Origin: Halobacteria archaeon AArc-dxtr1
GTDB taxonomy: Archaea > Halobacteriota > Halobacteria > Halobacteriales > Natrialbaceae
Direction of reading: 5' to 3'
DNA: 64,000 nucleotides
Assembly: GCA_025517425.1 (NCBI GenBank)
Contig: JAOPJY010000001.1
Location: 668,217 to 732,216 of the forward strand
The translations under genes and the position numbers were made by a program. Of the stretch, positions 19,374 to 24,639 are shown piece after piece. The first letter of the stretch is position 1; every line of letters starts with the position of its first letter. The notes under the pieces were generated by a model. It saw nothing but the letters and a program-made list of their open reading frames with translations. It made no database searches and had not been told where the DNA came from.

Positions 19374-20444
19374 ATGACGACTGAACGAACAGACGTGAGA
19401 ACCGGTATCGTCGGCCTGGGAAATATCGGCCGATACCACGCCGAGCGGTTGCTCGACCTCGGCGTGCCACTCGTCGGCGGCATGGACGTGTCTCGGGAGG
19501 CGAGGCGTCGCTTTGCACAGCAGTACGGTGTCGACGTATACGAGGATCACACGGAGCTGTATGATGCCGTCGACGCCGTCATCGTCACGACGCCCAACCG
19601 ATACCACGAAGAGTACGCGGTCGATGCGTTGGCGGCTGACCGCCACCTCCTCCTGGAAAAACCGCTCGCTCACACGATCGAAAGCGCCGAGCGGATTGCC
19701 GAGGCCGCTGCCGACAGTGACAGCGTTGCCATGGTCGGCTTCAACAACCGCTTTGCGAACGCCGTCCGTATCGTGAAAAACCGGATCGAACGCGGCGAGC
19801 TCGGAACGATCTCACACGTCGAGGCAAACTACGTTCGCCGCCGGGGCATTCCAGGTCGTGGAACGTGGTTCACTCGCCGAGCTGATGCCGGCGGCGGCTC
19901 GCTCATCGATCTCGGCGTCCACGCGATCGATCTCGCGATGCACCTGCTCGAGTTCCCGGCTCTCGAGGAGGTAGGGGGGACGACTCGCAGCACCTTTGGC
20001 ACGCGCGAGCAGTACGCCTACCTCGAGATGTGGGGCGACGACGCCGGCCCCGGCGAGTTCGACGTCGACGACTCGGCGAGCGCGTTCATCCGCTGTCACG
20101 GCAACCGGACGATCTCACTTGAAGTCGCCTGGGCGACAAACCGACCGACCACACACGAATTCGTCGTCCGCGGGAGCGACGCAGCCGCTCGATTCGATCT
20201 CCTGGAGGGTGACCTCTCGATTCACTCGGCCAGCCCGGAGGGTGTAAACCACCTCGAGGATACGACTATCGAAACAGTTCAAAACGACACGCACACCGAC
20301 GAACAGCGGCAGTTCTTCGAGACGATCGAGTCTGAGACCGAACCGACCGGCACCGTCGAACAGGCACTTACGGTCCAACGGATCGTCGACGCAATCTACC
20401 GATCGAGCGATCGCAACGCCTCAATTCGGTTCAACGACGAGTAA
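19374..20444 (+). CDS. Gfo/Idh/MocA-family NAD(P)-dependent oxidoreductase
   Basis: A 356-residue sugar or inositol dehydrogenase-like protein. The N-terminal Rossmann motif is GIVGLGNIGRYHAERLL, and the characteristic EKPLAHT loop is at about residue 100. The C-terminal alpha/beta domain contains GGGSLIDLGVHAIDLAMHLL, with the conserved DxxxHxxD-like active-site pattern of the family. Substrate cannot be assigned. It is divergent from mscS, with about 210 bases between, and convergent with the PAP2 gene downstream. Confidence 0.9.
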   Translation: MTTERTDVRTGIVGLGNIGRYHAERLLDLGVPLVGGMDVSREARRRFAQQYGVDVYEDHTELYDAVDAVIVTTPNRYHEEYAVDALAADRHLLLEKPLAHTIESAERIAEAAADSDSVAMVGFNNRFANAVRIVKNRIERGELGTISHVEANYVRRRGIPGRGTWFTRRADAGGGSLIDLGVHAIDLAMHLLEFPALEEVGGTTRSTFGTREQYAYLEMWGDDAGPGEFDVDDSASAFIRCHGNRTISLEVAWATNRPTTHEFVVRGSDAAARFDLLEGDLSIHSASPEGVNHLEDTTIETVQNDTHTDEQRQFFETIESETEPTGTVEQALTVQRIVDAIYRSSDRNASIRFNDE

Positions 20445-20470: not shown

Positions 20471-21385
20471 CTACCAGGAGAGACGGGTTCGCAGCCACCG
20501 AAAGCGGTCGACGGCGGCGGCTCGGAGCCGTTCGACCGCCGCGATGAGCGACTGTCCACCCTCTCTGAGCAGTTCTTCGGTAGTGTAGTTCACCCCGATG
20601 TAGACGCTGATCGCAGCCAGCATCGTCCCCGCGACGACATCCGTGAACCAGTGGATGCCGAGGTACATTGTCGAGAGCACGACACCGAGTGCGAGCGCCC
20701 CGGAGAGCGGGACCCAGAGGGGATACTCCTTGCGCGTGTGCCAGGCCAGGAAGAAGACTGTCATGGCCATCGAGGTGTGCAACGACGGGAAGACGTTCGT
20801 GTTCTCGTTGACCGTGTGCGTCAGGTGGCTCATGTGGGGGTAGGCATCGTACAGCAGCCCCGTAAAGAGATTGAGATCGTAGTTTCGAGGACCGTACGCG
20901 ACGAACAGCGTGTAGAAGGCAAGTCCGACGCCGTAGTTTACCGTAAACGCCAGCAGTAACGAGGAGAGGCGATCCATGCGCTCGTCGTCGAGAGCGAAGT
21001 AGGCCAGAAACGGAAACGCCAGCAAGAATACGTATCCATAGACGTAAATGAAGGCCGCAAGTGACGTGAGGCTCTCAGTTTGGACTGACTGCAACACGAT
21101 GACCGGATTCCACGGAAGAATCGTCTCCTCGATCGCAAACAGATGCGAGCTGATGTTGACGCCGACGTTCCAGGAGAAGTCGGTGAACCGATCCTGGGTA
21201 ACGATTCGGACGAGCAGTACGATACCGAGTGCCGCTGCTGGCGGGACGATCGCGACGAGTCGCCATCTACCAGTCTGGATGGCCCGCACTATCGGACGCG
21301 GCCCAATAAGTGCGAGTGCAGCCGTCGAGAGCATGGCCAGGGCGACGACCAGAAGCTCGAGGACCACGGCATCCAGAGCCATCAT
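20471..21385 (-). CDS. PAP2-superfamily membrane phosphatase
   Basis: A 304-residue membrane protein with about six transmembrane segments. PAP2 phosphatase motifs are NVFPSLHTSMAMT (motif 2, with SLH) and STMYLGIHWFTDVVAG (motif 3, SxxxLGxHWxxDxxxG); motif 1 lies near GPRNYDLN but is not clear. It probably removes phosphate from a lipid-linked pyrophosphate or phosphatidic acid, in the outer or inner leaflet. Two ATG codons in tandem mark the start. It is convergent with the Gfo/Idh gene. Confidence 0.85.
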   Translation of the reverse strand: MMALDAVVLELLVVALAMLSTAALALIGPRPIVRAIQTGRWRLVAIVPPAAALGIVLLVRIVTQDRFTDFSWNVGVNISSHLFAIEETILPWNPVIVLQSVQTESLTSLAAFIYVYGYVFLLAFPFLAYFALDDERMDRLSSLLLAFTVNYGVGLAFYTLFVAYGPRNYDLNLFTGLLYDAYPHMSHLTHTVNENTNVFPSLHTSMAMTVFFLAWHTRKEYPLWVPLSGALALGVVLSTMYLGIHWFTDVVAGTMLAAISVYIGVNYTTEELLREGGQSLIAAVERLRAAAVDRFRWLRTRLSW

Positions 21386-21458: not shown

Positions 21459-23204
21459 TCACTCGAGGAGTTGGTCGTCGGCGTATTGATACCCCTCCGC
21501 TTCGAACAACGACCGAGCGGCCTCGACGTCGAGTTCTCCGTCGGAGCCGGGAAAGGAAACGGGCGACGAGTCATCGATGTCGAGGTCGGTGTCACGAACG
21601 CCGAGCAGTTCGACCGTGCCAGAAGGCACTGTCCCGTGCCCATCGAGAAACTCCGCGAGAACGTACTCCCGATCGATGAGCGACGAGAGGACGACTCGGA
21701 ACCGAGGGTCACCGAGCTGTGGATGCTGGTGATTGTATCCGACCAGGTAACAGGCGTCCGGCGGCGAGTGATCGAGGGTGACGCTCGTATTTTCGCGGAT
21801 ACGCTGTGCGCTTCCGGGTGGAACTGAGGAGCCAGTAACGTCAATCTCATCGTCGATCAACAACTCGGTAAGTGCCTCCTGTACCGGTGCGACGTGAAAC
21901 TCGAGCCCGTCGTACTGCGGAAAGTTCTCCAGGATCGCTGGCCGGTCGGTGGCGTCGGAGCTGTACAAGACGTGTTCAGTGAAAAGTTCGTAGGAGACGG
22001 ACTGTCCGGCCGTCCGGTCGTCGAACTGTAACATCCCGGAGCCGACCGGCATCTCGTTTTCGGTCGTGCGCGCCTCGGTCAGGTGGTCGTCGACGACGGT
22101 GGATCGAGGCTCCCAGATATGTTTCGGCAACAGCGGCGTGGTCAGCGCCCGCTCTGCAACGTCTCTGCTGGCAGTATCGAACTCGACTTCGACGGTTCCG
22201 GAGTCGACACGAGAGACGGAGCTGATTGCTGTCTGTCGGCCGCGGAATCTGGGTGCCGGGATAGCGCTATCAGCGCCGCCCAGTGAGGTGTCCGCTATGA
22301 ATTCGAACGTGAACACGACGTCGTCAGCGTCTATCGCCTCACCGTCGTGCCAGGTGAGTCCATCGCGCAACAGGATTGTCGCCCGGGACGAGTCTTCCCA
22401 GTCCCAGGAGAGGTCGAGTGCGAGCCACGGAACGTACTCCGTCCCTGTCCATCGTATCAGCGGATCATAAAGTAATCCGATGATCGGATTTACACGCCCG
22501 CTCGCCGCAGCAATCGGGTTGAGCTGCTCGGTGAACTCGCCACGAACGAGTCCAACCCGAAGCGGTTCCTCACGAGCTCCGCTGCTCGGTTCGCGAGAAA
22601 GTAAGTCGAGGTAGCCGATGGGATGACTCGGTGCCGTCCGGGAAACGTCCGGAAACGAGGTTCGTCGACCGCTTTGGTGCTCGGGGTAGGCGACGACGAC
22701 GAACGGCATGGTCTGTCCGAGGAGTTCGAACAGTGCCTCAAGGTGCTCCGATCGCTCCTCGTCGGTGGCCTGTAGCTGCGCTTCGAGTAGGGCGTCCAGA
22801 GAGACGTCAGTAGCGTTGAACGGATTCTGCCAGCCATCTTCACCGCTGAATTGGGAGTGGAGCAGGCGCCTGAGCACGTCCGGTTCGTCGAACGCCGGCG
22901 TACGGGTGACGAAGAGGTCGTAGTCCTGATCGATGAGGATGTCCTGGTAGAGTTCGTTGGCGGCAACCGGCTCGTGGGTCGTAGTAATACCAACCGCAGA
23001 GAGATTTTCGCGAAGGTGTCCTAGAATCCGCGAAGCGATCGCGTCTTCGTCACCAGGAACTGTCTTCACTGTCACCGAGATAGAATCGTTTCCGCTGCCA
23101 GCTGGGGACCAGATAGCGTCGACACAGCCGGCGACCCCACCGACGGCGGCGGCCCCAAGACCAGCCAGGACCGACCGCCGGCTCGGTGACGTTCCGTCAT
23201 CCAT
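21459..23204 (-). CDS. Circularly permuted family-5 ABC solute-binding lipoprotein
   Basis: A 581-residue exported protein with a Tat signal (SRRSVLAGL) and lipobox VAGC (Cys27). Segment order is unusual. Residues about 42-200 look like the C-terminal part of family-5 binding proteins (DYDLFVTRTPAFDEPDV, then NPFNATDVSLDALLEAQL and TMPFVVVAYPEH). Residues about 213-300 look like their N-terminal part (LNPIAAASGR, LLYDPLIRWTG, LLRDGLTWHDGEAIDADDVV). The chain ends with LDVEAARSLFEAEGY, where a normal protein would continue into the region now at residue 42. Joining the ends restores the canonical order. No permease or ATPase gene lies nearby. Confidence 0.85.
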   Translation of the reverse strand: MDDGTSPSRRSVLAGLGAAAVGGVAGCVDAIWSPAGSGNDSISVTVKTVPGDEDAIASRILGHLRENLSAVGITTTHEPVAANELYQDILIDQDYDLFVTRTPAFDEPDVLRRLLHSQFSGEDGWQNPFNATDVSLDALLEAQLQATDEERSEHLEALFELLGQTMPFVVVAYPEHQSGRRTSFPDVSRTAPSHPIGYLDLLSREPSSGAREEPLRVGLVRGEFTEQLNPIAAASGRVNPIIGLLYDPLIRWTGTEYVPWLALDLSWDWEDSSRATILLRDGLTWHDGEAIDADDVVFTFEFIADTSLGGADSAIPAPRFRGRQTAISSVSRVDSGTVEVEFDTASRDVAERALTTPLLPKHIWEPRSTVVDDHLTEARTTENEMPVGSGMLQFDDRTAGQSVSYELFTEHVLYSSDATDRPAILENFPQYDGLEFHVAPVQEALTELLIDDEIDVTGSSVPPGSAQRIRENTSVTLDHSPPDACYLVGYNHQHPQLGDPRFRVVLSSLIDREYVLAEFLDGHGTVPSGTVELLGVRDTDLDIDDSSPVSFPGSDGELDVEAARSLFEAEGYQYADDQLLE

Positions 23205-23475: not shown

Positions 23476-24639
23476 ATGAAACTCGCACTCATCGGCTTCG
23501 GACAGGCGGGCGGGAAGGTAGTCGACGAGCTCTTGGCCTACGAGGAGGCGGTCGACGGGCGCTTCGTGGAGACGGCCATCGCGGTCAACTCCGCCTCCGC
23601 CGACCTCCAGGGACTCGAGCGCGTACCCCGGTCGAATCGCGTACTGATCGGCCAAACAAGCGTCAAGGGTCACGGCGTCGGCGCAGACAACGAACTCGGC
23701 GCACAGGTTACCAAAACCGACATCGAGGAGGTGCAGGGCGCGGTCGACCAGGTCCCGATCCACGAGGTCGACGCGTTTCTGATCGTCGCCGGCATGGGAG
23801 GCGGAACGGGGTCGGGTGGCGCTCCGGTGCTGGCAAAACACCTGAAGGAGATCTACACCGCCCCGGTCTACGGGCTCGGTATCCTCCCCGGAACTGACGA
23901 GGGCGGCATCTACACGCTGAATGCGGCGCGTTCGTTCCAGACGTTCGTTCACGAAGTCGATAACCTCCTGTTGTTCGACAACGACGCGTGGCGACAGGCC
24001 GGCGAATCGGTCCAGGACGGATACGACGAGATCAACCGCGAAATCGCGATGCGCTTTGGCTTGCTGTTCGCCGCTGGCGAGGTACGGGAGGGAGACGACG
24101 TCGCCGAGAGCGTCGTCGACTCCTCGGAGATCATCAACACCCTCTCAGGCGGGGGCGTCTCGACGATCGGCTACGCCTCCGAAACGATCGAGGGAAGCCA
24201 GGACGGGCTTCTCTCGCGGTTCATGGGCGACTCCGATAGCGGGGACAACGCTGCGACGACCCGGATGACCAGCCTCATCCGAAAAGCAACCAAGGGTCGA
24301 CTGACGCTACCGTGTGACGTCGGCAGCGCCGACCGCGGACTGGTCGTCGCAGCCGGGCCAGCGCCCTCGCTGAGCCGCAAGGGGATCGAACGCGGCCGGA
24401 GCTGGCTCGAGGAGGAGACCGGCAGTATGGAGATCAGAGGCGGCGACTATCCCACCAATCGCAAGCAAGAGGTGAGTGCGGTCGTACTCCTCTCGGGCGT
24501 GACCGACGTTCCTCGAATCGAACGCCTCCAGCAGGTCGCCATCGAGAGCAAGAAGACGACCGCAACCGTTCAGGCCAGCAGCCAGGACGAGTTCAACTCG
24601 CTGATGGACACCGGCGACGAGATCGACGCACTGTTTTGA
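23476..24639 (+). CDS. cetZ: CetZ tubulin-superfamily GTPase
   Basis: A 387-residue cytoskeletal GTPase of the haloarchaeal CetZ family, acting in cell shape and motility. It starts MKLALIGFGQAGGKVVDELL and has the tubulin signature GGGTGSGGAP, the NREIA/T7-like DEINREIAMRFG, and ENELGA-type DNELGAQVT. The C-terminal tail DEIDALF resembles CetZ1 tails. Downstream of the GTPase domain the GDYPTNRKQEVSAVVLLSGVTDVPRI segment matches the CetZ C-terminal domain. Length is normal. It has 270 bases of upstream non-coding sequence and no operon partner. Confidence 0.95.
   Translation: MKLALIGFGQAGGKVVDELLAYEEAVDGRFVETAIAVNSASADLQGLERVPRSNRVLIGQTSVKGHGVGADNELGAQVTKTDIEEVQGAVDQVPIHEVDAFLIVAGMGGGTGSGGAPVLAKHLKEIYTAPVYGLGILPGTDEGGIYTLNAARSFQTFVHEVDNLLLFDNDAWRQAGESVQDGYDEINREIAMRFGLLFAAGEVREGDDVAESVVDSSEIINTLSGGGVSTIGYASETIEGSQDGLLSRFMGDSDSGDNAATTRMTSLIRKATKGRLTLPCDVGSADRGLVVAAGPAPSLSRKGIERGRSWLEEETGSMEIRGGDYPTNRKQEVSAVVLLSGVTDVPRIERLQQVAIESKKTTATVQASSQDEFNSLMDTGDEIDALF

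Follow-up and report, generated by a model that had tools for sequence, protein, structure and literature searches.

The minus-strand gene for P0001, a protein encoded in the analysed stretch of DNA (the window, 64,000 nucleotides from Halobacteria archaeon AArc-dxtr1), had been described in the first-pass annotation as coding for a family-5 solute-binding lipoprotein with its two sequence blocks in swapped order, and as having no ABC permease or ATPase gene beside it. Few import proteins have been studied as closely as the family-5 binding proteins, and the locus raises the question of whether the chain of P0001 is indeed circularly permuted and, if it is, what role such a protein plays with no importer genes at its side.

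The layout of the gene and of its downstream neighbour is given in Table 1. P0001 carries a twin-arginine motif (RR9-10) and a lipobox cysteine (C27), and residues M1, R9, R10, G26 and C27 are invariant in an alignment of 21 relatives, in keeping with the earlier description of the Tat signal and lipobox as intact, although the Pfam TAT_signal model itself matched only weakly (E 0.2). The export signal and lipid anchor correspond, as judged over these relatives, to those of archaeal and Gram-positive family-5 members. Above cut-off, Pfam returned nothing for P0001 but SBP_bac_5 (PF00496), which matched in two stretches with 128.6 bits against a curated cut-off of 32.4. The longer block ends at EAARSLFEAEGYQYADDQLLE, just ahead of the break point.

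Table 1. Coordinates in the window of the P0001 gene, its parts and the partner gene
Feature	Position	Strand	Remarks
Circularly permuted family-5 solute-binding lipoprotein gene (P0001), whole	21459..23204	-	581 aa
Tat-type signal and lipobox, residues 1-27, C27 predicted to be lipid-anchored	23124..23204	-	
Residues 42-206, homologous to the canonical family-5 C-terminal part	22587..23081	-	canonical HMM 405-535 = residues 49-183
Linker SSGAREE, residues 207-213, from the canonical C-terminus to the canonical N-terminus	22566..22586	-	from sequence and alignment; boundaries inferred
Residues 214-581, homologous to the canonical N-terminal and middle part	21462..22565	-	PF00496: 256-578 = model 1-284; canonical HMM 69-388
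PAP2_3 (PF14378) membrane enzyme, partner gene directly downstream (73 bp)	20471..21385	-	304 aa; Pfam E 2.8e-17

The two PF00496 stretches lie in swapped order, residues 256-578 matching model positions 1-284 and the N-terminal part matching positions 303-357. Taken alone, residues 211-581 again scored 119.9 bits against model positions 1-284, and the N-terminal part alone gave a weak match to positions 303-357 (E 0.15). When P0001 was rotated and rejoined, a single collinear match to model positions 1-356 was obtained with 141.9 bits. A canonical-only HMM, for which E. coli DppA was combined with family-5 proteins of canonical order from other genomes, aligned residues 222-576 with model positions 69-388 (137.1 bits) and residues 49-183 with positions 405-535 (41.6 bits), whereas the rotated protein gave one match over positions 69-534 and the score rose from 137.1 to 188.5 bits. 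Rotation raised the score with this HMM in 53 of 53 permuted sequences. When the whole window was searched, both pieces came up in no ORF other than that of P0001, the N-terminal block with 41.3 bits (E 2.3e-12) and the longer block with 136.7 bits (E 3e-41), and the swapped block order was read in more than 80 loci. The order of the blocks and the place of the join are thus as the first-pass annotation had them; a single collinear match of the native chain to PF00496, which would have refuted the permutation, was looked for and is absent.

The same relation was observed from the side of the canonical proteins, where HMMs made from either permuted block detect their counterparts, but in the opposite order. 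In E. coli DppA, the second block occupies 71-377 of the frame and is followed by the first block at 392-539 (E 3.2e-23). A related profile (A2) matched known structures with both halves significant but exchanged: it aligned its positions 230-564 with residues 17-351 of B. subtilis AppA (1xoc) and its positions 65-207 with residues 361-498 (E 4e-14); in E. coli DppA, positions 266-557 aligned with 60-367 and positions 70-218 with 382-527, the second half of DppA reaching an E value of 1.3e-18. Among the matches listed for this profile against solved structures, no chain was collinear across the join. In DppA numbering, the break point falls between residues 367 and 382 of the precursor (about 339-354 of the mature protein) and is identical everywhere among the permuted relatives. 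The weak match of the first block alone to PF00496 (E 0.15) might suggest that the block order is an artefact, with two unrelated domains or with a first block that resembles the C-terminal region of family 5 merely by chance. This block is, however, significant with family profiles in both directions, and the break point is uniform. Chance resemblance is excluded by the window-wide E value of 2.3e-12 for the N-terminal block, the recurrence of the order in more than 80 loci and the gain on rotation in every one of the 53 sequences, and an artefact is hardly credible. As far as can be judged from sequence, it is virtually certain that P0001 belongs to the exported binding proteins of family 5 (SBP_bac_5, cluster C) and has a circularly permuted chain.

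In the canonical family-5 fold, known from OppA and DppA, the termini are neighbours in the N-terminal lobe. We take the break at mature DppA residues of about 339-354 to lie inside the C-terminal lobe, following the established OppA/DppA fold, and infer from this that the lipid anchor sits with the new termini on the C-terminal lobe, the old termini being joined by the linker of about seven residues (SSGAREE). A single-sequence AlphaFold model of P0001 has a pLDDT of 34. The canonical family-5 (cluster C) proteins DppA, AppA, OppA and NikA are homologous to P0001 over both blocks and P0001 is exported likewise, and WHDG, GSG, R503 and other family residues are kept in P0001; it differs from them in its swapped blocks, in the absence of ABC genes and in not conserving the equivalents of DppA R355 and D408.

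Homologues with the same order were sought in haloarchaeal genomes, and family-5 proteins permuted at the same break point were found throughout the Halobacteria as well as in some Alphaproteobacteria. Full-length collinear relatives of P0001 occur in nearly all genera of its family and in many other families of Halobacteria, and its own genome encodes a paralogue (C3:31433-33151) that is 36% identical to P0001 over residues 5-576 and has Pfam model part 287-363 upstream of part 2-259. Permuted examples from named records include Haladaptatus, Haloferax gibbonsii, Haloarcula, Halobaculum, Natronorubrum and Halostagnicola plasmids, the proteins being without exception labelled 'ABC transporter substrate-binding protein'. 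The more distant halobacterial permuted proteins share their operons with BPD_transp_1 permeases and with other conserved genes on the same strand; permuted HACJB3_RS16870 of Halalkalicoccus jeotgali, for example, belongs to an operon annotated with two permeases and two ABC ATPases. Among the Alphaproteobacteria, permuted proteins lie in ABC operons in Nitratireductor (DEJ54_RS20240), Ketogulonicigenium, Maritalea and Roseomonas, and Microvirga and Neorhizobium also have permuted family-5 proteins. With many permuted proteins encoded in complete ABC operons of the Dpp type, the permuted form is no one-off but an established variant, and P0001 is part of a large permuted lineage. The presence of permuted forms in ABC operons also means that such a protein is able to work as a normal ABC binding protein and very probably does so.

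Confinement of the permuted form to the Halobacteria was considered and rejected, as a nearer query finds permuted proteins in Alphaproteobacteria. With P0001 alone as query against genome contigs, only one distant bacterial relative was detected; the search of the sampled phylum outside the class Halobacteria gave only canonical-type partial matches, and no relatives were found in viral contigs. Of the alphaproteobacterial permuted proteins at loci L127, L128 and L152-L155, two have M20/M28 peptidase genes as neighbours and another has hydantoinase genes; none is annotated as permuted.

In a tree built on rotated sequences, the permuted proteins that are linked to a gene for a PAP2 membrane enzyme, P0001 among them, form one clade on a long stem (support 100/100). 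This clade lacks ABC genes and is separate from the permuted proteins of ABC operons; HACJB3_RS16870 and DEJ54_RS20240 share the permutation and the break point with P0001 but differ from it in their operon setting and in their position outside the PAP2-linked clade. Canonical haloarchaeal proteins of ~690-700 aa (L117:8254-10326, L123:7310-9376 and L145:642-2744) fall on a long branch beside the clade, a placement that may be due to long-branch attraction or else to a second permutation or a reversal. Holding all permuted proteins as one clade was not rejected (p-AU 0.425). Because of this result and of the one shared break point, a single origin of the permutation is kept as the simplest reading, although it is not proven.

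The PAP2 gene is located directly downstream, on the same strand, of nearly every member of the clade. Of 67 distinct pairs of genes for the solute-binding protein (SBP) and the PAP2 protein, 13 show an overlap of 4 or 1 bp, and in the others the two genes are within 305 bp of each other; two SBP-PAP2-SBP-PAP2 tandems were found. In Haloferax gibbonsii the pair is plasmid-borne. The members at L084, L104 and L105 are without an adjacent PAP2 gene, yet their genomes encode one. Presence of the two genes was scored at E <= 1e-40 in the same 292 haloarchaeal genomes: both are present in 190 and neither in 101, while a single genome has the SBP only (a borderline case) and none has the PAP2 gene only. 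The two lists were merged by hand transcription, and the counts are not corrected for phylogeny, nor are they independent of it. Shared ancestry alone is nevertheless unlikely to be the cause of the co-occurrence, because the absences of the pair are scattered across several families. We consider it very likely that the clade of P0001 is obligately paired with one subfamily of PAP2_3 membrane enzymes.

The motifs NVFPSLH and GIHWxxDV are invariant in the 67 distinct PAP2 proteins, so that the PSxH and HxxxD catalytic motifs are present, with His203 as the catalytic histidine, and the partner enzyme is very probably active. It resembles PAP2_3/inositol phosphorylceramide synthase (AUR1)-like enzymes in matching PF14378 and in its invariant PSLH and HWxxD, and one relative of the partner gene is annotated as inositol phosphorylceramide synthase; unlike other PAP2_3 enzymes, it forms a haloarchaeal subfamily that was never found without the permuted SBP in the 292 genomes. 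A few of the partner genes contain in-frame stops (G232:C2:399809-400627, G322:C5:131535-132353 and G193:C1:379178-379954) and are apparently pseudogenes or contain sequencing errors.

No BPD_transp_1 permease was found in the window, which agrees with the earlier statement that no ABC permease or ATPase gene is adjacent, and no ABC gene family recurs beside the PAP2-linked clade in 20-kb loci. Besides PAP2, no gene is common to more than a minority of 27 distant loci. The columns of DppA R355 and D408 are variable in 27 PAP2-linked sequences, and because these residues are not conserved, P0001 is predicted not to be a DppA-like dipeptide binder. Residues W125, Q126, P128, T306, P316 and R321, on the other hand, are largely specific to the PAP2-linked clade; the first three belong to a WQNP motif (125-128). 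From the co-occurrence in the 292 genomes (190/101/1/0), P0001 is therefore most likely a dedicated extracellular binding partner of a lipid or polyprenyl-phosphate enzyme and not a subunit of an ABC importer; its ligand, the hand-over and its biochemical role are inferred. Taken as a whole, the explanation that a permuted SBP left ABC import and is now dedicated to the PAP2 enzyme is the best one available and, with due reserve, a probable one.

P0001 could also be an ordinary, merely permuted ABC binding protein that feeds the single Dpp-type permease of the genome from a distance, the PAP2 enzyme processing the nutrient before uptake, for instance by removing phosphate. Permuted relatives do occur in complete Dpp operons, and the genome has one Dpp-type set (DppBC-DF at C3:136-141 kb) that an orphan SBP could in principle use. 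However, this set owns a binding protein, the single canonical family-5 protein of the genome, and the PAP2-linked clade stands apart on a long stem of its own, with no recurring ABC gene in 20-kb loci. As the DppA peptide-anchoring residues are also not conserved and the presence of P0001 tracks that of PAP2, remote import appears quite unlikely. Alternatively, P0001 might sense a ligand and thereby control the PAP2 enzyme or an envelope pathway, with no substrate being handed over, in the manner of LpqW, which has an SBP5-like fold. In mycobacteria, the lipoprotein LpqW channels PIM4 towards lipomannan synthesis (PMC3229680), and GT-C genes near some of the loci would also fit a sensor, but there is no direct evidence for one, and it is not obvious why a mere regulator should be present or absent together with the enzyme almost without exception. 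We regard a purely sensory function as rather doubtful, without discarding it.

If P0001 is instead dedicated to the PAP2 enzyme, the rotation would have kept the bilobed binding fold and shifted the lipid anchor to the other lobe, and the branch of P0001 would have abandoned ABC import. P0001 may then act as a ligand-binding or substrate-presenting subunit, or as a gatekeeper, of the PAP2 enzyme, the active site of which is expected on the outer membrane face, and the enzyme would contribute to the assembly of surface lipids or glycans, with a phospholipid or a polyprenyl-phosphate as its substrate. The substrate-presenting role as such is possible, but we would not yet call it probable. Equally tentative is the more specific proposal that an ABC-import SBP was turned into the obligate extracellular substrate-binding subunit of a PAP2/IPC-synthase-like enzyme, the two genes forming a haloarchaeal module for surface lipid/glycan assembly in which the anchor is on the opposite lobe.

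Permutation of a binding protein is already known in another class. Tp0684/TpMglB-2 of Treponema pallidum (Type Ic/Cluster Bc) is a natural circularly permuted, membrane-tethered binding lipoprotein and is discussed by its authors as a component of a transporter or a chemoreceptor (PMC4990184). It is, like P0001, a natural permutation of the binding-protein fold, the evidence for P0001 being limited to sequence; in contrast to P0001, it belongs to the type I/cluster B glucose-galactose family and not to family 5, and it is permuted elsewhere in the chain. P0001 is not a member of that type I family, since only SBP_bac_5 and a weak TAT signal were found in Pfam. By analogy, TpMglB-2 may be considered the nearest structural parallel and LpqW the nearest functional one, and to our knowledge LpqW is the only known parallel of a nutrient-type binding protein that has moved into envelope lipid/glycan chemistry. 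Unlike P0001, LpqW is not known to be permuted and is tied to PimE and lipomannan, not to PAP2.

No report of a permuted family-5 protein or of its pairing with PAP2 was found in the literature, with subscription journals thinly covered, and nothing relevant was found either on PAP2 in haloarchaea or on permuted peptide-binding proteins. A new functional linkage between the SBP and the PAP2 enzyme is strongly suggested but untested. The permuted family-5 form spans an archaeal class and some bacteria, hidden by the label 'ABC transporter substrate-binding protein', and profile-based annotation splits the permuted proteins in half without warning. The co-occurrence supplies an uncharacterised PAP2 membrane enzyme with a concrete partner and provides a testable case of a nutrient-binding protein shifted to envelope lipid/glycan chemistry. 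The permuted lineage also allows one to ask whether permutation matters through the choice of the tethered lobe, which is akin to what has been suggested on tethering in the case of TpMglB-2 (PMC4990184).

Several other genes are found near the pair. An arylsulfotransferase-like gene and a gene for a large membrane protein, several members of which match PMT_2 (GT-C), occur near it in 6-7 of 29 loci. PMT_2 is of the dolichyl-phosphate mannosyltransferase type. Both genes are present at L085, L104, L105, L130, L157 and L158, and the membrane gene only at L156; this context is found on plasmids and on chromosomes, at times with a phosphoglucosamine mutase gene. This glycan-related context speaks for the role proposed with the PAP2 enzyme, although an LpqW-like part in envelope lipoglycan synthesis is no more than hinted at by PAP2 and the occasional GT-C neighbours; against it, the window locus is without GT-C and arylsulfotransferase genes. 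In six loci (L085:13926-15344, L086:10976-12376, L088:10991-12109, L089:6613-8193, L090:7251-8819 and L157:3354-4823), an uncharacterised gene of ~490 aa, without Pfam match in the members scanned, is the immediate upstream neighbour of the binding-protein gene or lies near it. In the window, the divergent neighbour of the binding-protein gene is a gene for CetZ, a tubulin-like cell-shape protein (23476-24639, + strand), and 24 of the 31 loci of the nearest relatives have a CetZ-like G1 box in their flanks; the adjacency may reflect a gene order shared within one family or a functional envelope link. On the other side, a Gfo/Idh/MocA oxidoreductase gene (19374-20444, + strand) converges on the PAP2 gene, and a homologue is located near the pair in four distant loci, as is a Gfo/Idh/MocA gene near the pair of Haloferax gibbonsii.
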